A DNA stretch of 64,000 nt, taken from contig NC_015177.1 of the NCBI RefSeq assembly GCF_000190735.1, positions 2,790,001 to 2,854,000 on the forward strand. Reading direction: 5' to 3'. A model generated the notes under the pieces. That model saw only the letters and a program-made list of their open reading frames with translations. It searched no databases and was not told where the DNA came from. Shown one piece after another: positions 21,601 to 39,283 of the stretch. The DNA comes from Pseudopedobacter saltans DSM 12145. Its GTDB lineage: Bacteria > Bacteroidota > Bacteroidia > Sphingobacteriales > Sphingobacteriaceae. Each line of letters starts with the position of its first letter. The first letter of the stretch is position 1. Made by a program: the position numbers and the translations under genes.

Positions 21601-24600
21601 GATCTTATAAGAGCTTAGATCAGTTTCTGTATTAGCTGTCCAATTTAATACACTCTGCTGGTTATCAAAAATTGCCGTTAAACCCGTTGGTACTGCCGGT
21701 GCTTTGGTATCGTAAGTCAGGCTTGGTGTAGTTCCTGCTAAACCAGTATTTCCTGCTATGTCTGTATAGCTTCCAGCTGCTATCGTAATACTGACCGTAC
21801 CTTCATCTACGTTGGCGGTAGGGGTAAAGGTGGCCGTACGAGTTGTACCTGTTCCTGAAAGCGCTGATAATGTACCTCCTGAAATAATAATGTCTGCTGA
21901 GGTAAAACTACTTCCCGGATCTTCACTAAAAGTAAAGGTTATGGTAGCCGTTTCGTCTTTTTTAAGGGTAGATACACTGCTGGTAATAGCCACTGAAGGT
22001 TTCGTGGTATCTATTGTAATCGCTATTGCCGAAGAAGCTGAGCTAACATTTCCTGCTATATCGGTTGCCTTTGCTGTAATGCTATATGCTCCATCAGTCA
22101 ATGCGGATGCCAAAGTAATGCTCCAGTTTCCACCTGTTGCAGTTGTTGTACCTAATACCGTAGCCCCGCTATATAAGGTAATCGTTGCTCCTGCTTCTGC
22201 CGTACCTGTGAACGTAGGTTGGGTAACATTAGTAATATGGTCTGAGTCAGACACACCACTATCGCTTGCTGCTGTCAGTCCCGGTGTTGATGGCGCTGTC
22301 GGCGGAGTTGTATCCAACGTGTAAGCTTGCGAATATTCCATTCCTTTGTTACCAGCCTGGTCGGCTACATGTACATTTATGGTACTGCTACCTGATAACG
22401 TTACCCCGCTTAAAGAGAATGTATTTAAGCCTACGGTAGCAGTAGCCAGCTGATAGGTAGCTCCGTTGTCTAATGAAATGTGTACTGTTTCTCCGGTCTG
22501 TAAGTTAGCACTTAAGGTTCCTGATAGGGTTTGGGCAGCAACATTTGTGATAAAATCGGTGGATGAAACGCCGCTATCATCTGAAAGGGCCAAAGTTGCA
22601 ACAGTTGTAGTTGGTGGTGTTTTATCAATAGTAAAGCTTACTGTTGTGCTGTTACCTGCCGCATCGGTTACTACCAAGGTATAAGTTCCTTCTGCACTTA
22701 CTACTGAACCGCTTGTAAAAGTCGAACCGTTCAATGTTGCTGTACCTTCATTAAAGCTAATGGTTTTATCAGTGTTGTACAGACCACTATTAGTTACACC
22801 TGATACTATAGGTGCTGTCTTGTCTATAGTGAAAGCTATTGTTGCGCTGTTCCCTGCAGCATCGGTTACAATCAGCGTATGTGAGCCTTCTGCAATTACG
22901 GTTGTACCACTTGTAAAAGCGAATCCGTTCAGCGTTGCGGTACCTTCATTAAAAGTAATCGTTTTGTTTACATTATATGAACTTCCGTTGCTTACACCCG
23001 CTATTATAGGTGCTGTCTTGTCCACGGTATAACTCTGGCCTGCTGTATATCCGCCTGCGATATCATTACCTGCAATATCTTTAATACCAGTTCCTGAATT
23101 GTTAAAATCGAGGCGAATGGTTCCATCGCCAGTTCCCGTACTTACCGTAACAGTATAAACACTACCGCTTCCCGATATTGAACTGACCGAAGCCCCTGTA
23201 ATTCCTCCACTGGTATTTAAGGTAAAATCCGAAGCATCAACCCCGGTTACCAATTCTGAAAAGGTTACGTCGAAACTAATTTGCGAAAGATTAGTTAATG
23301 ACGGGTTTCCTGAGGATCTGACAATAGAGGTAACCGAAGGTGCAACGCCATCTACAAGCACCCCTGTAGTTGAACCTACTCCATTTAATGTCAACACCAC
23401 CGCGTTAGATGCTCCGTCTGTTATAGTTCCACCATTTAGGTCAATAGCACTTCCTACTGCAATACCATCTGTATCTAAATCTCCTGATTGTACGGTATAG
23501 GTAAATACCAAATCTCCTGTTCCGCTTACTGATGTATAAGTTGCATAACGTGTAGTTGAACCAATGGTCATTACTATACGTGGTGTACCTCCTGTTGTGG
23601 TAACATTTACATTTCCACTGAATTTTATAGTAAAATTTAATGTTTGTCCAATAGCATAAGTAGCATTAGAAGGTACAGTTACTGCTGTAATCGCTGTTGC
23701 AGCATCGGCTTGTAGTTCGTAAGCCCCCATATCTATCACACCGGCACTGGCATATTTATAAACACGGGCATTTCCGGCGAGATCTTTGGTATTGGCATCT
23801 AATCCGGTAAACGAGGTATTGCTACCTTTATTTACAGCCGGACTTGAAGCTGATAGCGTATAGTCGCCTGCTGCTGCATTGGTAAATTGTGGGTCTGCAT
23901 TGAGTATAACTGTTCCAGCGTATCCACCTTGTATAATACTATTTTTTACATCGATAGATGGATTACCTTCAATTCCAGATTTAGCGGTATTACTCCAAAT
24001 AATACTATTTTTTACAATAGCACTACCTCCATCATTATGCACAACACCTACGGTTGGATTGTTAACATTATCAGTTATAGTAACATTAATTAGCTCTGGC
24101 ATAGAAGGTGAAAACGCATTGTAGACTCCACTTCCTCTATAAGAACCTGTATTATGATGTATCAATGAATTTACTATTTTTGGACTAGAGCTAATATTAC
24201 AAACTCCTGCACCATCTCCACCCCCACTAACATTATATGATATATTAGCAAATTCTATCAAAAGATTTGAAAGATGATTGTAAATACCTGCTCCCGAGTT
24301 TTGCATTATTGAGTTACCATTTACAGTAATTGTGTTACCACCCCCATTTGCATAGCCTCCTTTTATGGTAAAACCGTTCAAAGTTGCTGTACCGGCATCG
24401 CCTGAACTCACTACCACATGGTAAGCATTGTTAGTATTATTAGTGCCATCAGGCAAATCATTATTATCTATATCTCCACTCAAAATACTGGCATTGGCTG
24501 TAAGGCTTAAATTTCTATTAGCTAAAGCATTTTCTGTGCCTGCAAAACCGCCATATATTTTTACATCTTTTACCAATAAGAATGTATTATCTCTGCCTTT

Positions 24601-26337: not shown

Positions 26338-26408
26338 ATAAATAATTTGTTTGTCTTTCTTTTTCAGCCCTAAAAGTATTACTTTATCAAAAATTTCTTA
26401 GAGCTTAA

Positions 26409-27425
26409 ATGAATAATTTTATTTTTAAAATTGCTTCTTCTATTGTTCATGCTAAAACGAAAGCCGAAGAGTTCGATTCCGGAAAGGCTTATGCCGACTT
26501 TCTAAACAGCCTAACTTTCCCCGAAACACGTTACAGTGATGAAGAAACCACCCTCACAGGAGGGGTTGCTTTATCTCCGTTACAAGCGGCCAATTGTGCG
26601 CTGGAGCACATCAGAACTGTACGTTTCATTAAAGGAACCTACCTTGCTATTCTCGAACTTTTTAAACGCTTTCCTCAGGAACAGATAAATATTTTATATG
26701 CCGGTACTGGCCCTTTTGCCACTATTATTTTGCCCGTACTTTCACTTCTTCCTCAAGCAAGCTTAAATCTTACCTTATTAGATATCAGCAGCCAGTCGGT
26801 TAATTCCGTTAAATCTTTATTTAGCCAGCTGGGTTTCAATCCTTTTGTTTCTGAAATTTCACATACCGACGCCATTACCTACACTTACCCCTCTGGGAAA
26901 AAACTTCATATGGTTATCTCTGAAACCATGTTTGAAGCTTTAAACAGAGAACCACAAATTGCCATAATGGCTAATCTGGCCAAGCAAATCTGTAAAGGCG
27001 GTATTTTCATACCTGAACAAATCAATATCGATTTGCTATATGCAGATTTTAATTCCGAGCCGAATCTTCAGATTTCCAATGAAAGCGATTTAATTCTTTC
27101 CAATACATCTTTTAAAGAACGTGTTGTCCTCGCTAAATCTGTTCTCAGTTTAGATCTGGACAATAATTTTTTTGATTGCGGGCAGGAAAAAATCCTTTAT
27201 ACACCCTGGTTTACCACTTCTTCTCTTTCTTTTTCTGTACCCGATCTGTGCCTGTTTACTACTGTAAAGGTATGGGATCATGTTGTGATCCACAGTTCCC
27301 AATCTACCATTACCAATCCTGTTTGCATCAGTTCTTTCCATACTTTGAACCAATTCGGTTCTTTCAGGTTATATTATTCTTTTCAGCACATTCCACAATG
27401 GTCTATTGAATACAGGAAAGATTAA
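26409..27425 (+). CDS. PRMT-like SAM-dependent methyltransferase 1
   Basis: A 338-residue cytoplasmic protein with a Rossmann methyltransferase core. Motif I is YAGTGPFA (about residues 97-104), an acidic residue ends strand 2 (LTLLDIS), and after the fourth strand comes SETMFEALNRE (171-181). The last fits SExMxxxLxxE, the double-E loop of protein arginine methyltransferases, with the two glutamates (172, 181) at the PRMT spacing. A beta-rich C-terminal half is compatible with the PRMT barrel. A paralog at 30295-31272 shares the pattern through IAIMxNLA. It is convergent with the Tail_Collar operon, 22 bases away. The substrate is unknown, and no classical THW loop was seen, so activity is not assured. 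Confidence 0.7.
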   Translation: MNNFIFKIASSIVHAKTKAEEFDSGKAYADFLNSLTFPETRYSDEETTLTGGVALSPLQAANCALEHIRTVRFIKGTYLAILELFKRFPQEQINILYAGTGPFATIILPVLSLLPQASLNLTLLDISSQSVNSVKSLFSQLGFNPFVSEISHTDAITYTYPSGKKLHMVISETMFEALNREPQIAIMANLAKQICKGGIFIPEQINIDLLYADFNSEPNLQISNESDLILSNTSFKERVVLAKSVLSLDLDNNFFDCGQEKILYTPWFTTSSLSFSVPDLCLFTTVKVWDHVVIHSSQSTITNPVCISSFHTLNQFGSFRLYYSFQHIPQWSIEYRKD

Positions 27426-27447
27426 TCTTCCCTGTATTTTTCATCTA

Positions 27448-28041
27448 TCAAGGTCTGGTAGGATAAAGTCCGACTAAGCAAATAATATAGTTCATAACCA
27501 AATAGGGCTGCATATTGTTATGCGGAGCAGATGCTCCCGCAATACTTGTTGAGGCAGTCACTGACTGAACTACCACTGACTGGTCATTCAGAGCCACATT
27601 TGGGGTTGCCTGGTTATAGTTTGCATCTGCAGTAAAGCTCCCCGCGTTATTTACCCCACTGGTTGCAATAGTTGCTCCCTGTGCAGGTAAAGGTTGTAAA
27701 GCATTTTGTGAAGATACTTTTAACTGCGCAGATAGGTTTGTTACTGCACCTGCAGTATGTGTATGCTGGGGCATCTCATTACTTGTTAGAACATGTGTTT
27801 CTTCTCCACCTTTTGTAGCAAGTGAAAATTGCGGCACAGCCATGTTTGCAAAAAGAGGAGCGCGCCCTCTAAGGTCGGGCAGATTAAAATCAGTACTTGC
27901 ATTTCCACCATAAGTTGTACCTATCAGCGAATATAAAGCCTGATAATTTCTTATTTGTAAACTTGTTCCATCGCAAATATGCCAACCACGAGGAACATTT
28001 TCAAGTGGCCATAGCATAATTGAACCTATAAAAGCTTCCAT
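27448..28041 (-). CDS. Phage Tail_Collar-domain protein (MdpB-like), tandem copy 1
   Basis: A 197-residue protein. The N-terminal ~60 residues are a clear Tail_Collar domain: GSIMLWPLENVPRGWHICDG, then YQALYSLIGTTYGG and FNLPDLRGRAP. The rest is a low-complexity beta segment rich in A, T, N and S, ending with HNNMQPYLVMNYIICLVGLYP, typical of the family. There is no signal peptide. Such proteins form phage tail-fibre tips, and chromosomal tandem copies (microcystin-dependent protein type) have unknown function. It is the last gene of a five-gene minus operon and starts 19 bases after copy 2. No other phage gene lies nearby. Confidence 0.9.
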   Translation of the reverse strand: MEAFIGSIMLWPLENVPRGWHICDGTSLQIRNYQALYSLIGTTYGGNASTDFNLPDLRGRAPLFANMAVPQFSLATKGGEETHVLTSNEMPQHTHTAGAVTNLSAQLKVSSQNALQPLPAQGATIATSGVNNAGSFTADANYNQATPNVALNDQSVVVQSVTASTSIAGASAPHNNMQPYLVMNYIICLVGLYPTRP

Positions 28042-28060
28042 AATATCTTTTTCTTTTTAA

Positions 28061-28669
28061 TTATTGATTAAAGTCTGGATAAAGTCCGTTTGTGCATATA
28101 ATAAAGTTAAGTGCAAAAGAAGGCTGCACATTGTTATGGCTTCCGCCCCCCCCTGTTCCACTGTTAGTATAATCTCCAGAAATGGCTACAGATTTACTGT
28201 TCAGGATTACCGTAGGAGCACTATTACCATATTTTAACACCGGATTGAATGATCTGCCTGAACCTGAGCCTGCTGTTGCCAGCGTGGCATTGGCTGTTGC
28301 AGCAGTTTGCGAAGCATTTGCCGAACTTACATTAAGGACCGCTTTTACATTTGCAACTCCCTGAGTAGTGGCAACATGAATATGTGCAGGCATTTCTGCA
28401 AGAGTTAAAGTATGTGCACCCTGTCCACCAGTCTGCGCCAGTACACGTGGAGTAAGATTCGGTCCCTGACCTGAGCCAATTGGCACCCGGCCTCTTAAAT
28501 CTGGTAAAGCAAAATTTGTAACGCCATCACCTCCGTATTTTTTCCCCAGTAATACGTATAATAACTGGTACTCATTAATATTTAATAAGCTGCCATCACA
28601 AAGATGCCAACCTAATGGTATTCTATTTAATGGCCATAATATAATGGCTCCTGCATATACATCTATCAT
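28061..28669 (-). CDS. Phage Tail_Collar-domain protein (MdpB-like), tandem copy 2
   Basis: A 202-residue homolog of the neighbouring genes. The collar domain reads GAIILWPLNRIPLGWHLCDG, YQLLYVLLGKKYGGDG, FALPDLRGRVPIG; the middle holds HTLTLAEMPAHIH; the end is HNNVQPSFALNFIICTNGLYP. The three copies agree in the domain ends but differ strongly in between, so they are not recent duplicates and may form a heteromeric assembly (inference). It starts 16 bases after copy 3 and lacks a signal peptide. Confidence 0.9.
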   Translation of the reverse strand: MIDVYAGAIILWPLNRIPLGWHLCDGSLLNINEYQLLYVLLGKKYGGDGVTNFALPDLRGRVPIGSGQGPNLTPRVLAQTGGQGAHTLTLAEMPAHIHVATTQGVANVKAVLNVSSANASQTAATANATLATAGSGSGRSFNPVLKYGNSAPTVILNSKSVAISGDYTNSGTGGGGSHNNVQPSFALNFIICTNGLYPDFNQ

Positions 28670-28685
28670 TTTCTAATTTTTAAGG

Positions 28686-29297
28686 TTAATCATTGAAGTC
28701 TGGATATACTGGTCCGTCAATACTAATAATTGCATTTAGCACTAAATAGGGCTGCATGTTGTTATGGGCTTGCGAACCTCCTGTAGTAGCGTTAACAACT
28801 GTAACACCACTACCCTGTGTGTTTACACCTATAGATCCAAGGTTTAGGGTAGTATCAGGGTCAGACATTACAAAGTTTTGTCTGGGCGTAAAAACTCCCC
28901 CTGTGTTTGTTCCTGCTACTGAAATAGAACTACCTGCAGTAGGAACTGATGCTCCGGCATTGTCATTGCTAACTGCAAGTGTAACTACTCCGCCTATATT
29001 TCCTGCATGCGAATGCAAAGCCATTTCATTAACATTTAAAGTATGCTGAGCTTCTCCTGTCGTTTTTCCCAAATCTAAATTCACAGACCCCGGAATTTGT
29101 CCTTTTCCTACAGGAATGTAAGTTCGCAGATCAGGCAATTTAAATGTGCTTTGCCCGCTTCCTCCATAAGTTTGCCCAATGAGCGAATAGAGTGCCGGAT
29201 ATTGATTAACCAGCAACTCCTGTCCCTGACAGAGCAAATACCCTGCAGGCGCCCAATTTAAAGGCCATAAGATAATTGACGAATAAAATGTTTCCAT
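28686..29297 (-). CDS. Phage Tail_Collar-domain protein (MdpB-like), tandem copy 3
   Basis: A 203-residue Tail_Collar protein, first of the three in transcription order. It has SSIILWPLNWAPAGYLLCQG, YPALYSLIGQTYGGSG, FKLPDLRTYIPVG, then HTLNVNEMALHSH and HNNMQPYLVLNAIISIDGPVYP. The usual WxxCDG is altered to YLLCQG and LRGR to LRTY, so it is the most divergent member. It starts 14 bases after the formyltransferase stop, which strongly suggests co-transcription and possibly a functional link to that enzyme. Confidence 0.9.
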   Translation of the reverse strand: METFYSSIILWPLNWAPAGYLLCQGQELLVNQYPALYSLIGQTYGGSGQSTFKLPDLRTYIPVGKGQIPGSVNLDLGKTTGEAQHTLNVNEMALHSHAGNIGGVVTLAVSNDNAGASVPTAGSSISVAGTNTGGVFTPRQNFVMSDPDTTLNLGSIGVNTQGSGVTVVNATTGGSQAHNNMQPYLVLNAIISIDGPVYPDFND

Positions 29298-29311
29298 ATA
29301 TGTTTAGTGAT

Positions 29312-30268
29312 TTATGTTAAATTGGGTTCAGGTATATTAACTGTTTCAAAACTTTGCCCAGCCTGCACACCTAAAGCGGCCAGCTTAAATCCCGATAATA
29401 TCCCATCAGTAGTTTGCACTACGTTAATTCTTAAATATTCGTTCTGTTTGCAGGCAACAAAAATTCCGCTATCGGGCTGGCTGTGAACAATCATTCCGGG
29501 CTTATAGTCTGCAGTTGATGATAAGGTAGCAGGCGTAACTTCTAAAATGCTAATGGGTTGATGGTTTAAATAAGTAATCGCACCGCCATAGCATGGATTT
29601 GCTGCGTTTATCAGATTTTCTATTTCCCCAGCGCTCATCTGCTCCCAGTTTATGGTAAGATCTTGCTTTTCGGGTCTTTTATAATAAGTTGAGTTTTGTT
29701 GTGCCTGTAATTCAGGCAAATTGTTGCCACTGTACAACTCCTGTGTAAATTGTATCAGCATATTTTGCACTGCCATAGCGTAACGGTTATTGCAAATACC
29801 CCAATTCTCACCGGGTATAAAAGGGATTTGCTGCTGCATTACTATTTCACCCTCATCAAAATCTTCATTAACCTTATGGATAGAAATTCCACCCATGGTT
29901 TCACCATTTTTGATTTGCCAGAATACCGGATCGGGCCCTTTATAGGCAGGAAGCAAGCTAAAATGCACATTATAAAATCCCTGCTTAGGAATATTGAATA
30001 TTTTTTCGGGTATACGATAAGAAAAAACAAACATGATAGCCAAATCTGGCTGTAGGTTATTCAGGGTAAGAACCAAATCCTCATGCAACTGTTTTCTGCT
30101 CACCTGGTAAAAAGAAATGCTAGCTCTGCTACAATAATCCTTAATCTGTACATTATGCCCTTGCAATTTATCTGTAGAAATTACAGCCTGTAGCCAGTCA
30201 TTTTTTTGGAAATGGCCCAATGCGGGCAAAACAGCAAGATGGTTGGCAAAAACAATAATCTTCATCAA
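29312..30268 (-). CDS. Formyltransferase-family protein (Fmt-like)
   Basis: A 318-residue protein with the formyl_trans_N fold. The core YNVHFSLLPAYKGPDPVFW corresponds to the conserved N-x-H and SLLP loop of 10-formyltetrahydrofolate-dependent enzymes, and GISIHKVNEDFDEGEIV supplies the catalytic aspartate. A C-terminal OB-like domain follows (~205-305). It is not a normal fmt: it lies in a five-gene operon with a PRMT-like enzyme and three Tail_Collar proteins. Members of this family also formylate sugars and amines. A possible role is modification of an operon product or a small molecule; the substrate is unknown. ATG at 30265 is an equal start candidate. Confidence 0.8.
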   Translation of the reverse strand: MMKIIVFANHLAVLPALGHFQKNDWLQAVISTDKLQGHNVQIKDYCSRASISFYQVSRKQLHEDLVLTLNNLQPDLAIMFVFSYRIPEKIFNIPKQGFYNVHFSLLPAYKGPDPVFWQIKNGETMGGISIHKVNEDFDEGEIVMQQQIPFIPGENWGICNNRYAMAVQNMLIQFTQELYSGNNLPELQAQQNSTYYKRPEKQDLTINWEQMSAGEIENLINAANPCYGGAITYLNHQPISILEVTPATLSSTADYKPGMIVHSQPDSGIFVACKQNEYLRINVVQTTDGILSGFKLAALGVQAGQSFETVNIPEPNLT

Positions 30269-30294
30269 TTAGTTATTATATGGTCTTTCAACAT

Positions 30295-31272
30295 CTATCC
30301 GGCATATACATTAAATCCTGTCTGTTCGCCCAGTTTATAAGCAAACCTCAATGTTTTTGCCTGGCTGAAATCTCCTTTTACGCTATAAGGCAATGTCAAT
30401 GAGCAATCGTTATAATTAAGTTTATTTGATTTATAGACCGTTATATTTGTTGTAAGCACCAGTTTAGATACTATTTCCTGGTCTGGTTCATAAACGACCT
30501 CCTGAAAAAACCATTCATCAGCACTTGAACCTGCAATAATTTCACGATAGCTTTCTTTGTTAAATCTACCCAGCTCTTTTAAAAACAAGGGTTCATTCTC
30601 TTTTCGGAGTGCTGCCAAAGCAACAGTTATTTCTTCAGGTATAAGTATGGTATTTCCGGGTAGTTGACTGGCTAAATTGAGCATAATTGCTATTTGTGGT
30701 TCATTGCGTAAACCACCATTCATGGTTTCACTTACCACAATATCTGCTGTATCTGTTACCTTCCAGGTAGCCGCATCGGCCAAAACAAATTCTTTTACGT
30801 AGACATTCAAATCAAGTATGGTTAAAAGCTGTTGCAACTTTTTGTAGCTAACCGGATTAATCTCCAGCAATGTAAATTGCACCTGATCGGGCCTGAATTG
30901 CATCATGGTTGGAATTGCCAAGGCTGCAAGAGGACCAGTACCCGCGTAGATTACCTGTATTGGTTTTGTAGTTTGTTTAACGAGACAATCTTTCACAGCC
31001 TCATAGATCCCCCTGCAGAAACGTTGTGTCCTTAGCACTTCACGCACACAAGCCGCAGCCCAGAATGGACCGATCGCTTTACCTGTATGGGTAAAAATAT
31101 CTTTTCTCTGCTCATTGCTTTCACTGTTTATATTGGTTAGCTCAAAGAGAATAGAAGCGTACTCATTTATAGCAAGGGCTAATGCAGGATGAAAATCTCC
31201 GGGCACTAATAACGCATCGCTTATATCTTTTAATCTTTCCTTTAGTTGTACAATATCAGCTCTCTTTTGCAT
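30295..31272 (-). CDS. PRMT-like SAM-dependent methyltransferase 2
   Basis: A 325-residue paralog of the protein at 26409-27425 and the first gene of the formyltransferase/Tail_Collar operon. Motif I is YAGTGPLA (about residue 108), strand 2 ends in LLEIN, and residues 181-191 are SETMNGGLRNE, again fitting SExMxxxLxxE with glutamates at 182 and 191. This is followed by PQIAIMLNLASQL and ILIPEEI, as in the other copy. The N-terminal ~100 residues are helical. The fold and the SAM pocket are reasonably clear; arginine methylation is inferred from the loop only. A -7 element at 31333-31340 is well placed for this start. Confidence 0.7.
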   Translation of the reverse strand: MQKRADIVQLKERLKDISDALLVPGDFHPALALAINEYASILFELTNINSESNEQRKDIFTHTGKAIGPFWAAACVREVLRTQRFCRGIYEAVKDCLVKQTTKPIQVIYAGTGPLAALAIPTMMQFRPDQVQFTLLEINPVSYKKLQQLLTILDLNVYVKEFVLADAATWKVTDTADIVVSETMNGGLRNEPQIAIMLNLASQLPGNTILIPEEITVALAALRKENEPLFLKELGRFNKESYREIIAGSSADEWFFQEVVYEPDQEIVSKLVLTTNITVYKSNKLNYNDCSLTLPYSVKGDFSQAKTLRFAYKLGEQTGFNVYAG

Positions 31273-31332
31273 GACAATCAGTATTTTTAAGGAGAAGACG
31301 TTATTTTAAAAATCAATTTTATACTATAAACC

Positions 31333-31340
31333 CAAAGATA
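31333..31340 (-). promoter_or_regulatory. -7 element of the methyltransferase/formyltransferase/Tail_Collar operon
   Basis: The minus strand reads TATCTTTG, a perfect TAnnTTTG. No TTTG lies 19 bases upstream. Instead the shared near-palindrome is centred about 40 bases upstream of the element, as expected for an activator-dependent promoter. Confidence 0.5.
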
Positions 31341-31364
31341 GCACGGGGTAAAGGTTTAATCCTA

Positions 31365-31380
31365 TAGACCTAAGGGTCTT
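31365..31380. promoter_or_regulatory. Near-palindromic motif, site 1
   Basis: TAGACCTAAGGGTCTT contains the dyad AGACC-N4-GGTCT. The core CCTAAGGGTCT is found in reverse complement at 39355-39365, upstream of the other island operon. It may be a binding site for the response regulator encoded at 33528-34139 (inference). Confidence 0.45.
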
Positions 31381-31575
31381 TTTTCCATTAATTCTTTTAC
31401 AACCTAAAAAAATTAATAAAGCCTCTTGATATCCTTAAAATTTGTTATTCGGCAAGAAACTATTTATATAAATAGACGTAAAAGGAAGAGGTTAGAGGTA
31501 GAAAAAAGTAATGCTTAGTTTATCCCTATTTGTATAATTGCCAAAATATTCCAGATTATATCCTATTTTTCTAAA

Positions 31576-33525
31576 ATGAAATTAAGGCCGGCTCTCAGCA
31601 TTTATTTATATATTTTATTATCGCTTCCCTCTTTCTGTCTCGGAGAAGGTGTCTTTATATCTGAAAAAAATGCTGAAGCCCATACTTTACTGAAACCTTT
31701 TTTCTATGCGATAGAAGATTCTTCAGACAATTACTCTGCCAAAGATATCCTGCATAAGCAACAATCAGACTTCAGTCTGCTAGAACAACTTAAGCTTAGC
31801 GCCCCAGATCATACAATATGGCTAAAAACCACGATACAAACTTCCAAAGATCTCCTGCATAGAGATTTTCATTTGAGCTTCGACCATCTAACTTTTGTTG
31901 ATCTCTATCTTTTTAAAGACGACAGTTTAGTTACGCATAGACAAGCGGGAGTATTTAGAAAACAATCAGAGATTTCTGCAGGCGATCAGCGGCTCGGCTT
32001 CAACCTGTTACTGAACAAGGCAAGCAATTATCAGTTACTATTAAAAATAAAGCACACCAAGAAATATCCCCCCATTTTCAATTTTCAGTTACAGGATGCC
32101 TATGCTTATCTCGTAACAAACAGAAATTTAGATCTCACCAATGCATGGTTACAAGGCGCCCTGGCTATATTATTTTTATATGCCTGTATCTCCTGGTTGG
32201 TTAACCGTTACCGGCCTTTTGTGTGGGTAGCTTTATTTTTATTATTGATAGGGCTTTATGGCTTTTCTTTGCAGCCGCAATATATCGATCTGCTATTTCC
32301 CTCTTATCCCGAAACCGGCTGGCTGTTGGTTCTGGTATACCTGCATTCGGGTATCATCAGCTTCTATCTGCTTATGGCAGATTTCCTGGAGATTAAAAAG
32401 AATGACGCAACACTTTATCGCTGTCTTATGTATGTTATAAAAGCGATTCCGTTTTTCACCTTGTTATGTCTTACGAATAATATACTCACTTCCAATTATT
32501 ATCTCACTAATCAGATTAACCTTTATATTTCTATTGTTCACTTATCTTGTATAGGGTATACATTTTTTACCTTATGGAATAAATTAGATAGCGGCCAACG
32601 ATTTCTTTTATACGGTATTATTGTCTTCGCAGCAGGTGCCATTGCTTTAGTGGGTATCACCTTTGTATTAAATGAACAGGGTTTCATATACGCGCCCATT
32701 ATAACAAAAACTACCATTATACTGATCGCTATATTATTCCTGGCAGGGATAGGCAGAAAGCTGAGACAGCACGAACAGGAGAAAATCGCTACGCTGAAAC
32801 TGTTAAATAAGCTACATAGTGAACACAATGTTCTGATAGAACACAAGGTAGAAGAACGTACTATTGAACTGCAGGCTATGAACAGTAAGTTAACACTGCA
32901 GCAGGAAGAATTGATCAGCCAGCATAACCATATTCAAACCCTGATGGATGAGCTTAACCATAGGGTAAAGAACAACCTGCAGATGCTATATAGCCTAAGT
33001 ACCTTTCAATTGCCACAAATACAAAATGAGAAAGGCAAACAGGTGTTAAATGAAATGCGCAGCCGTATTAAGGCCATGATGTTGGTAAATGAGCATCTGA
33101 ATACGGAAACCGAGAAGCAATTTGTACAGGTATCTTCCCTTACAAAGGAAATCAAACAGCATATACAATATATTTATGACCCTCAGCGAACGGTTAAAAT
33201 CGAGCTGGATATTCCTGACAATTTTTCACTAAGCACTAAACATTCTTTACCTTTTGGATTGATATTAACCGAACTTTTCACCAATACATTCAAGCATGCC
33301 TTTGAGCCGGAATACATTGCTCCCTCTATTAAAATTGGAATCTTCTTAGCCGAAGAAGAAATACAGTTAACTTATAAAGACAATGGCAAAGGTGCGGAAA
33401 AACTAGATACCCGTTCATCAATGGGAATATCCCTTATACATGATCTGGCGAGACAATTAAAAGGACAACTACAAATAAACACCAATTCTGGATTCAATTA
33501 TCTTTTCACTTTTCCTAAACACTAA
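31576..33525 (+). CDS. 7TM sensor histidine kinase (DISM type, HisKA_2)
   Basis: A 649-residue membrane kinase. A signal-like N-terminus precedes an extracellular 7TMR-DISMED2-like domain (~30-180, FHLSFDHLTFVDLYLF). Seven hydrophobic segments span ~188-395, then a coiled coil (~400-450). The dimerisation domain is HisKA_2 with phosphoacceptor His462 in ELNHRVKNNLQ, and the ATPase domain has ELFTNTFKHAF and DNGKGA with SMGISLI (~550-645). This type senses surface or soluble ligands through the DISM domain. The response regulator gene starts two bases after its stop. The pair sits between two minus-strand operons that share an upstream motif, suggesting it controls them. Confidence 0.92.
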   Translation: MKLRPALSIYLYILLSLPSFCLGEGVFISEKNAEAHTLLKPFFYAIEDSSDNYSAKDILHKQQSDFSLLEQLKLSAPDHTIWLKTTIQTSKDLLHRDFHLSFDHLTFVDLYLFKDDSLVTHRQAGVFRKQSEISAGDQRLGFNLLLNKASNYQLLLKIKHTKKYPPIFNFQLQDAYAYLVTNRNLDLTNAWLQGALAILFLYACISWLVNRYRPFVWVALFLLLIGLYGFSLQPQYIDLLFPSYPETGWLLVLVYLHSGIISFYLLMADFLEIKKNDATLYRCLMYVIKAIPFFTLLCLTNNILTSNYYLTNQINLYISIVHLSCIGYTFFTLWNKLDSGQRFLLYGIIVFAAGAIALVGITFVLNEQGFIYAPIITKTTIILIAILFLAGIGRKLRQHEQEKIATLKLLNKLHSEHNVLIEHKVEERTIELQAMNSKLTLQQEELISQHNHIQTLMDELNHRVKNNLQMLYSLSTFQLPQIQNEKGKQVLNEMRSRIKAMMLVNEHLNTETEKQFVQVSSLTKEIKQHIQYIYDPQRTVKIELDIPDNFSLSTKHSLPFGLILTELFTNTFKHAFEPEYIAPSIKIGIFLAEEEIQLTYKDNGKGAEKLDTRSSMGISLIHDLARQLKGQLQINTNSGFNYLFTFPKH

Positions 33526-33527
33526 AC

Positions 33528-34139
33528 ATGATACGCATTTTAATTATTGAAGACGAGATTGTCATTGCCCGATTCATTGAACAGCAGCTTAAGATCATTT
33601 CTCCATGTAAAGTTGAAATCGCCCTTTCTATCGAAGAGGTAGAACAACTACTTCCCGAGTTTTCCCCGCAATTGGTACTGTGCGATATTGAACTTAACGA
33701 TAAGCTGGATGGTATTGAACTGATTAAATCTTTGAAAGCGTCTTATTCGTTTGAACTAATTTTTATTACATCTTATCAAACCATCAACACCATTAACAGA
33801 GCGTTTGAACTTGCTCCAGCGAATTATATCATCAAGCCTCTGGATGAAAGCAGACTATATGCAGGAGTTCTGCCGGTAATTAAAAAGATATCCGCAAACA
33901 GCGACACGAAAAATGATATTGCTGAACTCCAGAAACAGGTTAGTCAAAGCGAACTGAATATCCTCAAGCTAATTGCTAAACAAAAAACAACTAAGGAAAT
34001 CGCCGATATATTGAATTTAAGTCCGTCTACAATTAAAAATCACCGACACAGCATTTGCAGAAAGTTGAATCTGGGGGAAGAGACAAATGCTTTGTTAACC
34101 TGGACATTAAAAAATCATAAATTGTTGGAGACAGGTTGA
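33528..34139 (+). CDS. LuxR/NarL-type response regulator
   Basis: A 203-residue regulator. The receiver domain (~1-120) has the acidic pocket EDE near residue 9, the phosphoacceptor Asp53 in LVLCDIEL, a Thr/Ser in FITSYQ and the Lys of IIKPLDE. A linker leads to a LuxR-type helix-turn-helix (~140-200, SQSELNILKLIAKQKTTKEI, LSPSTIKNHRHSICRKLNL). It is translationally tied to the kinase upstream. Likely target sites are the near-palindromes at 31365-31380 and 39354-39370, both upstream of island operons; this is inferred. A stem-loop follows the gene. Confidence 0.92.
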   Translation: MIRILIIEDEIVIARFIEQQLKIISPCKVEIALSIEEVEQLLPEFSPQLVLCDIELNDKLDGIELIKSLKASYSFELIFITSYQTINTINRAFELAPANYIIKPLDESRLYAGVLPVIKKISANSDTKNDIAELQKQVSQSELNILKLIAKQKTTKEIADILNLSPSTIKNHRHSICRKLNLGEETNALLTWTLKNHKLLETG

Positions 34140-34176
34140 ACCAATATTAAAAACTAATACAGAATAATTTAACGAA

Positions 34177-34234
34177 TAACGTGAGTACAGAATATTTAGC
34201 ATGATCCTATGCCGTTCATTGTGTACTCACGTTA
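34177..34234. terminator. Stem-loop between convergent transcripts
   Basis: Arms TAACGTGAGTACA (34177-34189) and TGTACTCACGTTA (34222-34234) are exact complements over 13 bases around a 32-base loop. It lies between the response regulator and the convergent 34253 gene and probably ends one or both transcripts. Confidence 0.5.
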
Positions 34235-34252
34235 AATAATTAAAGTGGATTT

Positions 34253-34969
34253 TTACCGAATAAGCACTCCGGCTGTTTTGACAGACTTTAATACCACTCT
34301 CCCACCATACAATACGCCATACACAATTTCTCCTTTCGGCAATGGGATCTTAAGAACCAGATTATCAACACCAGAAAGATCCAAGGGTGCCGTCAGATCA
34401 TCTGCAATTGAGCTTAGCAAGAAAACCTTTTTTCCGGCCGGTATATTTTCGGCTTTGAAAAACAGATAGAGCTGAAAAATTCCAAAAACAAAACTTCCCC
34501 CTTTTGATAATAAAGAAAGAGGCCAGTCCCATTTCTTTTTCATATCCATTAAATAATCTTTATGCTTACCAGCTACCCGAAGTCCAATTCGTATTAATGC
34601 AAAGACCAATACAATCTGCAGAGTTAACCTTAGCCATGCGGGCCATTTATCTAATCTGGTTCCCATAATTGTTACACCTCCGCCAATATAGCCAACTACG
34701 GTCGTAACGTATTTTGCAGCATTACATATTTGTGCTGCCGTACCAAGCATAGAAAGCACTACCTCTGTAGAGGTTTTTACACCTTCTATAGGCGTAGCTT
34801 TTACAACGGTATCTGTAAAAGAGTTTTCTAATGCTAACCGGATTTCGGGTACTCTTTTCACTTTTTCTATCCCATAAGATATTGTTGATATCAGATTTAA
34901 ACCAAAATGGGCACATCGGATAATGTCTTCATAAACACTTTCATTTGTTGTTTTAGTATCTGTTGCCAT
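34253..34969 (-). CDS. Hypothetical membrane protein, 238 aa, last gene of three-gene operon
   Basis: Not recognised. The protein lacks a cleavable signal peptide. It has weakly hydrophobic helices at ~65-105 (STEVVLSMLGTAAQICNAAK, GYIGGGVTIMG), a clear membrane segment at ~116-133 (LRLTLQIVLVFALIRIGLRV), and another near 155-170 (GSFVFGIFQLYLFFK). The C-terminal 50 residues are beta-like (LVLKIPLPKGEIVYGVLYGG). It starts four bases after the 892-residue gene, so the two are translationally linked. It could be a membrane partner of the two large upstream proteins; this rests only on gene order. Confidence 0.7.
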   Translation of the reverse strand: MATDTKTTNESVYEDIIRCAHFGLNLISTISYGIEKVKRVPEIRLALENSFTDTVVKATPIEGVKTSTEVVLSMLGTAAQICNAAKYVTTVVGYIGGGVTIMGTRLDKWPAWLRLTLQIVLVFALIRIGLRVAGKHKDYLMDMKKKWDWPLSLLSKGGSFVFGIFQLYLFFKAENIPAGKKVFLLSSIADDLTAPLDLSGVDNLVLKIPLPKGEIVYGVLYGGRVVLKSVKTAGVLIR

Positions 34970-34973
34970 ATTT

Positions 34974-37652
34974 TTAAATTATAGAGGAGCTTAACCTGTT
35001 TGAAAATTCTTCTTTTGAGAGTTGCGAAAATGGTGCTGTCCCATTTATCAATTTATAAGCAATCGTCATAGGAATAGCAACTAACAGACAGCTAAAATCC
35101 AGAATAGTCAACGCGTGACCATTGTTTACTTTTTTATATATTTCGGAAAGAATAGGGATTCTGATTTCCGCATTAAGAAATTCTTTTATTATCCCAATAC
35201 AATCAATCAGCAAATCAAAAAGTGCTTTTACTAACTCTTCTATCAATTCAAAGGCTATCTCTACCAATACTTGTCCCATTCTTTTAATAAATTCTCCTAA
35301 AGGAAGTTCGCCTTTGAACAATTTAGCTATCAAATCCACTATCTTTTTCAGATGAGGATCTTTTGTCTGACCAGAGAAGTCTTTCAATGCTTCTGTATTT
35401 ACTCCATTGGTATTCACACTTCCACTACCGAACATCACTTCTTTTTTACTGTTTACCCAATTCGGCCTGTTATCTACCGTATTCTCGGCTCCCATTTGCT
35501 GATTTGCTTTTGCCAAATCGCCCAACGATGTATTTAGCCTATCATCTTTCAATTCATCAAAACCGACTGCTTTGTCAACTTTCCTTTTCAGTTCCCTGAT
35601 ATTTTCAACCACCAGATTTTTCAAGCCGTCGATTTGAGGAACTACTCCATCTAAACATTTATTCACCGTCATGCTCAAAGCATCCTTAGTATCCAAGATA
35701 TCTTGCCAGTCGAATAAGAAAGCCAGAAACTCTACCAGGTCCTTAAAGAATACTTTAACTTTTTCCCAAATCCTTTCTAAAAATGCAAAGGCTCCTTTTG
35801 CTGTATCAACAATCCAGTTAACCACTTTACCTGCAATTTCTATCACAAACTGAACCCCTTCTTTAACTTTGTTTATCACAAATGCGGTTACTTCTGTAAA
35901 TCCCTTTTTAATGCTATAAAAGAGATCGCCTAATGTATTTCCTGTTTCAGTCCAAAGATTACCAGATACAGAACCGGATACCGCCAACGCTACCGTTCCA
36001 TTTGCAGTAATTTGATTGCCTGATTTTGAATTTGCACTTTCATGTCCCAATTGTCCCGCTGTGGCAGCCAATGTGTTTATAGTTTTAGCTATTTCATCTA
36101 ATTCTTTGGCATTATAATTTCCGGCAATCAACAAGTCTCCATTTTGCTTTTTTGCATTGGACAAATCTTTTCCAGATGTAATCTTTTCTTTTATCTTCTC
36201 CTGTAGTCCCTGTGTAGGGTCAATAACTAAATCTGTATCTAAAAAATCTGCGGCTATAACGATTGGCGCTGCAGCTATAGAATCTAAAGGACAAACAATA
36301 TTAATGTAGTCAGAGAAATCCAGACCAATTGATTTATCCGACACTAAAAAATATTTTTTATTGTTAATGTATATCACCATATTCTCTTTTCCTGAAATAT
36401 GGATTTGCCCTTCAACCGGCTTTGGATTGCCATTACTTAAATGCAGATCTATACTATATGTATTAATCTTAACGGTTGCATTTAAATCAGATACCTGTAT
36501 TGGATGTTCTTGCCAATGTTTACTCACCTCATCCTGCCAAAAATGAATCAATTTTGATTGTTCGGAACCAGTATCAAATAAAAAAAGCTGATTTGTAAAG
36601 TTATCGCCCTTAATGGCTGTAAATTCGGTAATACCCTCATGCATTTTCAGCGGTAATGTCCAGCGTTGTATGGTATTAAGGTAGTTTCCCCTGGCATCAA
36701 TTTGCTGAAAGGTATTGGTTATGTAATACAGATACCTATCCTTTTTATCTAAAGCCCAAATCGTTACATCATCATCATTTTTAGAAACATCTATTTTACT
36801 ATAGCTTATCGTTTTGGGAGCAACTTGTTCTTTTTCATCATCCGGGCTATCAAATTTGAAGATTCCTTTTCCGGCAACATATAATATGCTGTTACCTGCT
36901 TCGTCTTCCAAAAGATCGAAACAGCTGATTACTTCTCCTGTTTCAAATCTGTATTGTGATATTTCTGCCCCTTCCTTTTCAGGAAAGCTTTGAAAAAGCA
37001 TAGTTCCATTCTTTCCAATTTCATAAAGCACAAACACACCATAATCGCCGTATAAACGTCCAACACTTAATTGCTTCGCTTGTATAGTATTTTCGGGAAG
37101 TGTATAGTTTTCTGGCTGCCTATGATATTCGAAGTAGTGATATAAAGCATCTGTTTTCTCAAATGACGTACTAAACAACACTCCTCTTTGATCCATAGTA
37201 ATGTGATCTACTATGCGCGATGGCTGGCTTAAACGCTTACTCTCATACTTTAAGTAACTTTTAAATTGTTCTAAATGCGTTTGATTTAAAACAATCTCTT
37301 CTGAAACCAAAAGTTCGGATAGTTGATTTTTCCGCTGGCTAAAACATATCCTGAATTTTTGATGTACTTCATCATAATAGAAGTCAAAACTGCTTACTTC
37401 GTAACCTGCTTCAGACAAAGACACCATATCCCACCCGGCATCACTACCACTAGCATTGATTATAGCTGTAAGTACACCGTTTTTTCCAATAAAAAAAATA
37501 ACGGCTTTATCTTCTCCAAATTTCAAAGACTGAATTCCCTTTCCTTCATTTACCGCACTTTCAGCCACATAATTTTCCATAAACTCGCACTGATATTGCA
37601 CAGTAACTCCGTTATATTCTTTTCTTTTTGAATTTGATTTTATCATACTCAA
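34974..37652 (-). CDS. Large hypothetical protein with beta-rich front and helical/amphipathic back, 892 aa
   Basis: Not recognised with confidence. Residues ~1-340 are repetitive beta blades alternating with lines such as FRICFSQRKNQLSELLV and SILYVAGKGIFKF, which suggests a beta-propeller. Residues ~340-480 are also beta-rich. From ~480 the protein becomes helical and amphipathic, with FVINKVKEGVQFVIEIAGKV, AFAFLERIWEKVKVFFKDLV and FLAFLFDWQDILDTKDA, and two hydrophobic stretches near the end. I recall WQDIL-type segments in hypothetical proteins of fungi and bacteria, but that is memory, not evidence. There is no signal peptide. Second gene of the operon, starting 20 bases after the 536-residue gene. 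Confidence 0.75.
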   Translation of the reverse strand: MSMIKSNSKRKEYNGVTVQYQCEFMENYVAESAVNEGKGIQSLKFGEDKAVIFFIGKNGVLTAIINASGSDAGWDMVSLSEAGYEVSSFDFYYDEVHQKFRICFSQRKNQLSELLVSEEIVLNQTHLEQFKSYLKYESKRLSQPSRIVDHITMDQRGVLFSTSFEKTDALYHYFEYHRQPENYTLPENTIQAKQLSVGRLYGDYGVFVLYEIGKNGTMLFQSFPEKEGAEISQYRFETGEVISCFDLLEDEAGNSILYVAGKGIFKFDSPDDEKEQVAPKTISYSKIDVSKNDDDVTIWALDKKDRYLYYITNTFQQIDARGNYLNTIQRWTLPLKMHEGITEFTAIKGDNFTNQLFLFDTGSEQSKLIHFWQDEVSKHWQEHPIQVSDLNATVKINTYSIDLHLSNGNPKPVEGQIHISGKENMVIYINNKKYFLVSDKSIGLDFSDYINIVCPLDSIAAAPIVIAADFLDTDLVIDPTQGLQEKIKEKITSGKDLSNAKKQNGDLLIAGNYNAKELDEIAKTINTLAATAGQLGHESANSKSGNQITANGTVALAVSGSVSGNLWTETGNTLGDLFYSIKKGFTEVTAFVINKVKEGVQFVIEIAGKVVNWIVDTAKGAFAFLERIWEKVKVFFKDLVEFLAFLFDWQDILDTKDALSMTVNKCLDGVVPQIDGLKNLVVENIRELKRKVDKAVGFDELKDDRLNTSLGDLAKANQQMGAENTVDNRPNWVNSKKEVMFGSGSVNTNGVNTEALKDFSGQTKDPHLKKIVDLIAKLFKGELPLGEFIKRMGQVLVEIAFELIEELVKALFDLLIDCIGIIKEFLNAEIRIPILSEIYKKVNNGHALTILDFSCLLVAIPMTIAYKLINGTAPFSQLSKEEFSNRLSSSII

Positions 37653-37672
37653 AATATTTATTGATTAATTAT

Positions 37673-39283
37673 TTATGTTAAAGCGTAAGCGATATCAAAA
37701 AGTACAGCATCGCTATTATCTTGTTTTCCGTTTAATAAACGGATGTCCTTAAAAGTGTAGACATTAGAGCCTGGTAAAATCACCTTATTGGAGAAATCCT
37801 GTATACCCTTAAAGGTCATCTCTCCTAATTCGCTCCCTATCCTACTCAATAGGCTTTCGGTATAAGCCATTTGTACACCGGCAATTGCAGCAAAAAAGTC
37901 TGAAATTCCAGACCATAGCCTATCAAGCCCATGTTTATATTCTGGGCCATCCGAGTCTCTTCCGACCAACGGAGCTTCATATAGGGGTTCTATTTCTATT
38001 TTACCTTCGCTAGATGCCCTCAACCTAATCTTCAATGTTCCTTCTTTTCCCTTCTTCTTGTTAATTTCATATTTTCCATTTGTAGAGAATTTCTGGTTTA
38101 CGCCTACTGTTCCTATCAGTGCTGATTTTTCTTCATGAACATTACCAGAAACCTTGATAATATAGTCTATAGAAATACATTTACTTTCCTTTACATCTCT
38201 TATCCCATCCTTTTCTAAGCTAAAATCCATACTGGCGCCCCCCTTACTACATTTAAAAACTACCTTACTTTCGGATCTGCTGTCACTGTCATAATATCCA
38301 GAATCCTCAAAAGATTCTTTAAAGGCCTCAGTTACCTTTGCCGTAATGGTGTCTAAATAATTGTTTTTAAAGGTTTGAAAATCTATTGCAATGACACCAC
38401 TAGCGGTAGTTGTTTTGTCTGAGGCTGATTCTACGAGACTCTTATCTATCCGCCCACCCTGAGGTGCTTCTGGAAATTGGTGATGATCTGTCAGCAGCAG
38501 AAAATTAAATGCCGATTCACGTACATTATTGCTATACGATATGGAAAAAGATGCTCCGGTGGGATATAGTAAAGCTTTATCTCTTTCTATTAGTTTTTTC
38601 TTTCTAACAGTATAGCCTAATATATAGGGATTATCTTTATTGCTTCCCAGACTTTTAAAATAGTTAGCTAATGCTATTTGTAAATAGGTAAGCTTTGAGA
38701 TACCCTTAGGTAAAAGACTATCTTTGACACTATATTGATTAACGTCAGCCCGCTGAAAATCCAGAAATATAGAATCTATTAAAAAATCATTGTCATTAAA
38801 ACCTTCTTCCCTAAGTTTTTCTTCAGATTTCTCATCCAGCATATACATATCTTTACTGGTGATCCTTAATTTGGAAACAGGGACCCTAAATGCATACTCC
38901 ATTCCCGCCAAATCACATTTATTCATGTTTCCATTTTTGAAATAGCAGAATTCACCTTCCTTTATAATTATTTTGAATAGAAGTTCTGTATGACTGTCTT
39001 TGAAAAAGGTTACCTTAAATCCCGCTACAGTAACGTCCATTAAGATATCGTAATTTGCATAATCTGTTATCCTGGTCTCGTCTTTTTGATTGAGCCAGGC
39101 TTGCCGGGTGATTTCAAAATTACTGCCTGTATTAGCGATATACTCGCCGTCTAGATTGCTTAAAAAGTGCCATCGGTCTGAAACACGCTTTTGTTTTAAA
39201 AGCTGGTTGAATTCATAACTAACTTTACTGTCAGATAATGCCAGAACCATATCGTACTGGCCCAAATTCATATTATTCCCCAT
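37673..39283 (-). CDS. Hypothetical protein, possibly P47/OrfX (TULIP)-like, 536 aa
   Basis: First gene of the three-gene operon. It opens MGNNMNLGQYDMVLALSDSK, is mostly alternating beta strands without signal peptide or membrane segment, and ends LPGSNVYTFKDIRLLNGKQD and VLFDIAYALT. That opening and the PGxxxYTFKD ending resemble P47/OrfX-type lipid-binding-fold (TULIP) proteins of botulinum-type loci and their relatives in other bacteria and fungi. The similarity is recalled by eye and is weak. If right, the product may bind a lipid or form part of a toxin-like complex with its two neighbours. ATG at 39271 is an alternative start. Confidence 0.7.
   Translation of the reverse strand: MGNNMNLGQYDMVLALSDSKVSYEFNQLLKQKRVSDRWHFLSNLDGEYIANTGSNFEITRQAWLNQKDETRITDYANYDILMDVTVAGFKVTFFKDSHTELLFKIIIKEGEFCYFKNGNMNKCDLAGMEYAFRVPVSKLRITSKDMYMLDEKSEEKLREEGFNDNDFLIDSIFLDFQRADVNQYSVKDSLLPKGISKLTYLQIALANYFKSLGSNKDNPYILGYTVRKKKLIERDKALLYPTGASFSISYSNNVRESAFNFLLLTDHHQFPEAPQGGRIDKSLVESASDKTTTASGVIAIDFQTFKNNYLDTITAKVTEAFKESFEDSGYYDSDSRSESKVVFKCSKGGASMDFSLEKDGIRDVKESKCISIDYIIKVSGNVHEEKSALIGTVGVNQKFSTNGKYEINKKKGKEGTLKIRLRASSEGKIEIEPLYEAPLVGRDSDGPEYKHGLDRLWSGISDFFAAIAGVQMAYTESLLSRIGSELGEMTFKGIQDFSNKVILPGSNVYTFKDIRLLNGKQDNSDAVLFDIAYALT

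Follow-up and report, generated by a model that had tools for sequence, protein, structure and literature searches.

What are three proteins of the phage Tail_Collar family doing in one bacterial operon with a formyltransferase and an enzyme resembling protein arginine methyltransferases (PRMTs)? This question is raised by a locus in a stretch of 64,000 nucleotides (positions 2,790,001 to 2,854,000 of NC_015177.1) of the Pseudopedobacter saltans DSM 12145 chromosome, a single contig of 4.64 Mb; the whole stretch is called the window, and coordinates refer to it. We found that the three collar genes, two PRMT-like genes, the formyltransferase gene and the gene of a giant adhesin with a CHU_C domain form one conserved locus, and that enzyme-bearing versions of it are present in other phyla. 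The explanation that we favour, with a probability of about 0.5, is that the collars are a domesticated phage receptor-binding tip, which is modified by the enzymes and works together with the giant surface adhesin.

The conserved unit spans 18655-31272. On its minus strand, PRMTa (30295..31272), the first gene of the operon, is followed by FmtL (29312..30268), Col1 (28686..29297), Col2 (28061..28669) and Col3 (27448..28041). PRMTb (26409..27425) lies on the plus strand, convergent with Col3 at a distance of 22 bases, and a further 71 bases separate it from the minus-strand gene of the 2560-aa adhesin (18655..26337), after which comes a minus-strand gene for a PorP/SprF-like protein (17638..18504), a probable surface anchor partner. 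An initial annotation, made from the letters alone, had proposed a system at 26409-39283. The genes listed there are all present at their places according to open reading frame (ORF) and family scans, and the tight packing described for the minus strand was borne out in two operons, with gaps of 14-26 bases from PRMTa to Col3 and of 4-20 bases in a three-gene operon further right. The interval itself was wrong, since the adhesin of the unit lies just left of it; the annotation missed both the adhesin and its PorP/SprF neighbour, and PRMTb had to be reassigned to the plus strand, where it runs towards the collars. Outside the source genus, the PRMTa locus that matches best is that of Pedobacter montanisoli; it has the identical order of response regulator-histidine kinase, PRMTa-FmtL-Col1-Col2-Col3, PRMTb and adhesin. 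Identities to it are 86% for PRMTa, 79% for FmtL, 89-97% for the collars, 95% for PRMTb, 71% for the fetched part of the adhesin, 62.5% for the kinase and 68.5% for the regulator. A pattern scan gave 40 promoter-like sites against a shuffle mean of 46.6, that is, fewer, and 12 terminator-like sites against 9.1.

The description of the collars as three diverged Tail_Collar proteins held: Col1, Col2 and Col3 match PF07484 (8.5e-24, 4e-24 and 3.7e-26), share 40-44% mutual identity and are the only matches to this family in the genome. Each carries, besides PF07484, the HxH motif that marks a receptor-binding tip (at residues 95, 96 and 93, respectively), which all 11 rows of collar alignment A2 share and which reaches at least 90% in 60 rows. 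The best solved relative by sequence is T4 gp12 (7e-10), and fold matches comprise the cyanophage A-1(L) fibre, gp12, the gp37 tip and 6OV6 (entries 8kec, 1ocy, 2xgf and 6ov6). PMC9478572 cites a paper whose title describes 6OV6 as the putative tip of a long tail fibre of a Bizionia prophage, and according to PMC9509320, paired His may bind iron in such fibres. The C-termini read ...YPDFND in Col1, ...YPDFNQ in Col2 and ...GLYPTRP in Col3. Neither NCBIfam nor PADLOC provided a name for collars or PRMTs, and PADLOC gave 0 families at E <=0.01 for 8 of 11 proteins, all but Col2, the kinase and the regulator. Mini-collars of 79-82 aa, consisting of only the collar domain and a GIYPSR-type tail, were seen at L277:6612-7411, L227:3535-4049 and L228:234-479, near a PRMT and proteins that by eye resemble F5/8-type (discoidin) domains.

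The 2560-aa protein bears the marks of a type IX adhesin, namely a CHU_C domain (3.7e-26), a PorP/SprF neighbour and, by eye, a signal-like N-terminus; it also contains YDG (1.6e-57), MBG_2 and Big domains. A second adhesin of 2225 aa likewise ends in a CHU_C type IX secretion domain and has SprB repeats. CHU_C was matched 13 times in the genome, of which 12 were over the cut-off. The ORF at 39711-40589, of which 17638..18504 is a paralogue, matches PF11751 (PorP_SprF) at 4e-44, and their shared blast family has members in 15 clustered neighbourhoods, the window included. Near their 3' ends the two adhesin genes share 1385 identical bases (19007-20391 and 41061-42445), and the three PorP/SprF genes have identical stretches of 64-260 bases in common; judged from these sequences, the identities probably reflect recent duplication or gene conversion.

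Both PRMT-like assignments stood, each on its own kind of evidence. PRMTa reaches the Pfam PRMT5 family PF05185 at 24.7 bits (cut-off 22.9), and its loop SETMNGGLRNE aligns with the double-E loop of PRMT5. PRMTb has only weak generic methyltransferase matches in Pfam. Its AlphaFold model (predicted local distance difference test, pLDDT, 91) was compared with the PDB by Foldseek, and the 50 matches listed of 401 at E <=0.001 carried, without exception, titles of PRMTs or PRMT5 complexes, with TMq values of 0.46-0.56; the predicted structure combines a class I S-adenosylmethionine fold with a PRMT-type C-terminal domain. The double-E loop has a catalytic role in PRMTs, and its glutamate pair, E172 and E181, is invariant across 62 sequences. 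The sequence link to solved PRMTs is barely detectable (E about 0.7), and PRMT profile A1 had no hit against the PDB at 0.01. PRMT-fold enzymes are, to our knowledge, little known in bacteria. In a tree of 95 PRMTs, PRMTb falls into a clade of nine members (98% support in the Shimodaira-Hasegawa-like approximate likelihood ratio test, SH-aLRT), comprising this genome, P. montanisoli, genome G110, four f4/g29 genomes, a Gilvibacter metagenome-assembled genome (MAG) and another Flavobacteriaceae MAG; in nine of nine the gene is convergent with a collar gene. In five other loci (L203-L205, L212 and L215), PRMTa-type genes of Pedobacter adjoin a PhyH-type dioxygenase gene, and L203-L205 contain no collar in the fetched DNA.

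The kinship of the collar domain with T4 gp12 could also indicate a remnant of a prophage, a tailocin or a contractile injection system. The initial annotation had noted the absence of phage structural genes, integrases and transposases nearby, and we agree: ORFs of at least 150 aa inspected by eye and Pfam applied to the scanned proteins revealed no other phage structural gene in the window, neither sheath, tube nor capsid, and no integrase or transposase gene near the locus. A search of 50,697 phage records found no PRMTb match, and profile A1 had no confirmed match in IMG/VR (18 pattern matches). The same cassette is found, moreover, in another genus and in other phyla, so that a phage remnant is extremely improbable.

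The wider distribution was examined in 151 genomes of the family and 395 of the phylum (Bacteroidota), of which 43 and 103, respectively, contain PF07484 collars, some of those in the phylum sample maybe as prophage genes. Neighbourhoods of up to 20 kb, which were not a random draw, were clustered by blastp; the family sample supplied 11 PRMT regions, 37 collar regions and three regions around u892, a gene treated below, and the phylum sample supplied 11 PRMT and 49 collar regions, taken roughly by collar score among the matches listed. The 89 collar loci obtained, which include one locus twice (L023 and L085), have one collar copy in 50 cases, two in 9 and three in 30. In 48 of them, one or more enzyme families are encoded no further than 8 ORFs away: a formyltransferase in 27, the smaller and the larger Asp/Asn hydroxylase (AspHs and AspHl) in 16 and 12, a PRMT in 10, PhyH in 10, adenosine 5'-phosphosulfate (APS) kinase in 9 and GNAT in 8. 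A substrate-binding-like protein, which was left out of the enzyme count, is near in 30. Pfam names (Peripla_BP_6, Asp_Arg_Hydrox, PhyH, APS_kinase, Metallophos, Carbam_trans, DUF6916 and GNAT) come from single members; AspHl had no Pfam family in the tested member and was named through the first-pass blast family that it shares with AspHs. In 61/89 loci, one of the 4 ORFs downstream of the collars on their strand is at least 700 aa long, as compared with a background of 23/425 among ORFs more than 5 away. PRMT homologues were detected in 11/151 family genomes, once as a fragment, and in 13/395 phylum genomes. All 13 of the latter also carry a collar, for which a hand calculation that ignores relatedness gives a chance of ~3e-8, and in 6 of the 12 besides the source the two genes lie within 2.5 kb of each other. 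A scan of genome contigs gave 268 PRMT relatives, and the DNA fetched around the best 80 matched a collar in 14 cases and not in 66.

Outside Bacteroidota, cases were chosen from hits, not sampled. Pseudoalteromonas CF6-2 combines an Ig-like protein of 2867 aa, a collar, a formyltransferase and a PRMT-like protein, in which by eye both loop Glu are kept and Leu replaces the preceding Ser. Pseudoalteromonas NC201 and P. piscicida have AspHs, PRMT, GNAT, DUF6916 and three collars, which in NC201 end in SRN, PRN and PRN and have a 3995-aa ORF alongside. Clostridium carboxidivorans has PRMT, GNAT, a collar fragment, DUF6916 and a 1455-aa ORF, and in Ruegeria, Paenibacillus and Deinococcus three proteins annotated as 'tail fiber' lie close to a GNAT gene and to the gene of a large protein. 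The pairing of collars with large proteins, frequently Ig-like ones, is seen repeatedly in Bacteroidota, Pseudoalteromonas, Ruegeria, Paenibacillus, Deinococcus and Clostridium. A chance cluster of independently conserved genes would fit the varying enzyme sets and the 41/89 collar loci with no enzyme family near, and the three-gene operon in the window does resemble a chance neighbour; against such an origin stand the synteny across genera, the collars in 13/13 PRMT genomes, the convergence of 9/9 PRMTb genes and the similar sets in other phyla. Chance is a very improbable explanation of the locus, and clustering by chance is disfavoured for PRMTb, FmtL, the collars and the adhesin, with PRMTa and the two-component system less settled.

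The initial annotation had suggested that the enzymes may modify the collars. This is now the best reading by virtue of a covariation in relatives between a hydroxylase and the last collar residue, and is otherwise inferred. From 180 collar ORFs (158 + 22), 159 were kept after short, long, truncated and identical rows had been dropped, and alignment columns and residues were tested over these collars for each enzyme (679 column-residue tests). For the Asp/Asn hydroxylase the top result was a C-terminal Asn, present in 30/31 collars with an AspH gene in the locus and in 56/128 others (p 1e-8), as compared with p 7e-5 for the best hydroxylase association at any other position. The association was retained after thinning at 50% identity (17/18 vs 18/51), within loci that contain a formyltransferase or the substrate-binding-like protein (23/24 vs 30/52) and outside them (7/7 vs 26/76). 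We then fixed a prediction beforehand, that at least 90% of collars near further hydroxylase genes would end in Asn or Asp, and fetched the DNA around 20 of the 42 AspH places listed, of which the best was already part of the set. Fourteen of the 20 had no collar; the other six, all in previously unused genomes, contained 16 collars, of which 16 ended as predicted (Asn in 14 and Asp in 2). At the level of genomes, an Asp/Asn hydroxylase is present in 33/79 collar genomes, and outside loci with GNAT or DUF6916, Asn ends 57/60 collars with a hydroxylase in the genome and 15/62 without; where the hydroxylase is only in trans, the count is 32/34. Permutation within the four genera that hold both states gave p 1.5e-4. 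Shared descent as the sole cause was rejected because the association holds within genera and after thinning. Among Pseudomonadota, the loci seen that bear on this rule were two from Pseudoalteromonas, closely alike. From these sequences we infer that in relatives the hydroxylase acts on the C-terminal residue of the collar.

In L287, L291, L292 and L294, an AspHs module that includes either APS kinase and AspHl or a 169-aa partner lies away from the collar loci of its genome and looks as if it acted in trans. Collars of GNAT loci end in Thr in 9/23 cases, as compared with 0/136 elsewhere (L162, L172, L174, L177, L180, L182 and others), which is possibly another enzyme-residue pairing.

For PRMTb, a candidate target was found within the collar. 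At alignment column 273, Arg is present in 11/25 PRMT-linked collars and in 3/134 others, and at the genome level in 7/38 vs 3/84 (p 0.01). At least one collar in each of the nine loci of the PRMTb clade has it, and in the triplets of the source genome and P. montanisoli it is Col2 alone. There it corresponds to Arg139 (codon 28253..28255, minus strand) in the motif GRSF at 138-141, and the Col2 model places residues 138-139 between predicted strands 134-137 and 140-143. We regard Arg139 of Col2 as a candidate PRMTb target, on evidence weaker than that for the hydroxylase.

FmtL, first annotated as an Fmt-family enzyme, has the Formyl_trans_N and Formyl_trans_C domains, and it stays under the Fmt equivalog cut-off (TIGR00460, 156.6 bits vs 201.5) as well as below the curated ArnA cut-off of NCBIfam; a match over the Fmt cut-off, at 286.8 bits, is encoded elsewhere in the source genome. 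The active-site Asn-x-His and Asp are kept in all 28 aligned formyltransferase rows of the loci, two of which are one gene fetched twice. At L085:6632-8329, a carbamoyltransferase (Carbam_trans_N and Carbam_trans_C) lies within a collar-formyltransferase locus. The best solved relatives of FmtL are the sugar formyltransferases ArnA (4.5e-23), and this raises the alternative that the enzymes make or decorate a small molecule or a sugar for the adhesin or for lipopolysaccharide, with the PRMT acting on free arginine, the ArnA-like formyltransferase on an amino sugar, and the collars merely binding or carrying the product. That one relative has the carbamoyltransferase, that 30/89 loci have the substrate-binding-like protein and that 75/103 PRMT-like rows lack a collar within 6 ORFs, as far as DNA was fetched, would agree with it. 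Conversely, no glycosyltransferase or nucleotide-sugar enzyme was found among the scanned proteins of the window (the loci of relatives were not scanned for such enzymes), and the hydroxylase tracks a single residue of the collar itself. On balance, we consider the small-molecule alternative unlikely.

Several results weigh against modification of a surface tip by these enzymes. The source genome has 0 hydroxylase matches, and the last residues of its collars are Pro, Gln and Asp. Within GNAT/DUF6916 loci, Asn does not follow the hydroxylase (6/14 vs 3/14), and tree-based pairs for hydroxylase and Asn, which are few and underpowered, gave 5 in the same direction and 0 in the opposite one of 9 (median p 0.06), or 3 and 0 of 7 when loop and tail columns were removed. 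The Arg of column 273 is confounded by descent (0.6 same and 0 opposite of 3 independent pairs) and is outscored by Phe at column 280 in the same loop. The penultimate Arg of the tail was also considered as a PRMT target; a P-x-R ending, its Arg last or last but one, is present in at least 111/158 collars, and this candidate was rejected because PRMT presence does not track the Arg (21/25 with PRMT vs 99/134, p 0.2; at the genome level 31/38 vs 62/84, p 0.24), which in the window only Col3 has. In the PRMTa clade, 19 of 23 rows are far from any collar, so that PRMTa may act on another substrate. PRMT and collar are apart in the other 6 of the 12 PRMT genomes of the phylum sample, and the 41 enzyme-free collar loci belong here as well. 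The Col2 model is a monomer with a pLDDT of 80 and a predicted template modelling score (pTM) of 0.57.

Finally, Col1-3 have no evident signal peptide, judged by eye. This would be expected if a collar were a ribosomally made scaffold, whose C-terminal residue is modified and then released, or an intracellular sensor, and two further facts fit such a role: the mini-collars retain the collar domain and tail only, and the enzyme-linked residue is the very last. Full-length collars, however, retain the HxH of phage tips (11/11 rows, and at least 90% in 60 rows), and a large same-strand ORF follows in 61/89 loci. We therefore consider a scaffold or sensor quite unlikely.

The neighbouring genes to the right differ in their standing. 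A sensor histidine kinase with 7TMR-DISM and HisKA_2 domains (31576..33525, plus strand) and a response regulator with Response_reg and a LuxR-type GerE output domain (33528..34139, plus strand) were confirmed by Pfam; we regard them as associated, with an inferred role. That this two-component system belongs to the set, as had been proposed, is partly supported by its place in P. montanisoli and by kinase/regulator pairs beside collar genes in a Spirosoma and on a Hymenobacter plasmid; 20/89 collar loci have a regulator from its blast family at a distance of at most 8 ORFs, a count without a background rate for comparison. Beyond it follows the minus-strand operon (34253..39283) of u238 (34253-34969), u892 (34974-37652) and u536 (37673-39283), whose products of 238, 892 and 536 aa remained unrecognised, as first noted: none reached a Pfam or NCBIfam cut-off. 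For u536 and u892 there was no Pfam relative, and a PDB sequence search gave 0 hits at E <=10; a possible TULIP/P47-type likeness of the N-terminus had no support from Pfam or the PDB. The operon is missing from the syntenic P. montanisoli locus. Relatives of u892 occur in 4/151 family genomes, the source included, and the three others (L099, L100 and L101) have no collar in the fetched 16.5-20 kb and no PRMT match genome-wide; in those three a u536-like partner (u536 identity 17-18%) adjoins the u892-like gene. We therefore rejected the operon as a member and regard it as a neighbour, because it is absent in synteny and its u892 relatives have no collar in the fetched DNA. Of the co-occurrence implied by the initial annotation, PRMT, formyltransferase and collars are retained as a conserved and recurrent unit, and the three-gene operon falls outside it.

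Taken together, our data suggest the following model. In relatives, the enzymes would act on the collars, with the hydroxylase, in cis or in trans, tracking the C-terminal Asn. In P. saltans, PRMTb may methylate Arg139 in an exposed hairpin of Col2, and FmtL may formylate some group of a collar. The three divergent collar proteins would assemble as a trimer, possibly a heterotrimer, which becomes the ligand-binding tip of the adhesin; the adhesin would leave the cell through the type IX system and be anchored by PorP/SprF, and the adjacent two-component system would switch the operon. A broader version of this model, which we offer tentatively, is a system shared across phyla in which domesticated receptor-binding trimers have their chemistry set by exchangeable enzymes, a hydroxylase with APS kinase and PhyH on the C-terminal Asn and a PRMT on the loop Arg, and the tip so modified acts together with a giant adhesin; an enzyme swap would therefore alter the binding of cells or of phages. 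If true, partnership with giant adhesins and changing modifying enzymes would give a role to non-phage collars, and the locus may represent an undescribed mechanism by which bacteria chemically adjust their adhesive specificity. Predictions at the level of residues follow, namely a hydroxylated C-terminal Asn and a methylated loop Arg, through which arginine methylation in bacteria and the C-terminal hydroxylation of surface proteins could become directly accessible to experiment.

We found no assigned role for collar-domain proteins outside phages. A literature search, which covered titles and the beginnings of abstracts among the matches listed and few subscription papers, revealed no locus joining a collar with a PRMT, a formyltransferase or an adhesin, and no report among these matches of SprB-type adhesin loci with collars or PRMTs. 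We call this kind of system new because the matches listed describe none that joins these parts; its single parts have clear counterparts. With the T4 gp12 short tail fibre, the gp37 tip, the cyanophage A-1(L) fibre and 6OV6, which give the best sequence and fold matches, the collars share the Collar domain and HxH. Unlike those fibres, they were seen with no phage genes around, stand as three diverged copies beside a cellular adhesin and modifying enzymes, and have a conserved C-terminal tail, G-x-[FY]-P-x-R-x, which is present in at least 111/158 collars of the loci. The PRMT-like enzymes of the locus have the fold match and the double-E loop in common with the eukaryotic PRMTs PRMT5, PRMT7, PRMT2 and CARM1, but are bacterial, about 330 aa long and barely similar in sequence. 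FmtL has the two-domain architecture and the Asn-His-Asp active site of ArnA and Fmt, but lies below the curated cut-offs and is a paralogue placed beside collar genes. According to PMC9143113, type B C-terminal domain proteins associate with PorP-like proteins. SprB-type type IX adhesins have the CHU_C export domain and the adjoining PorP/SprF genes in common with this locus, whose 2225-aa neighbour also contains SprB repeats.

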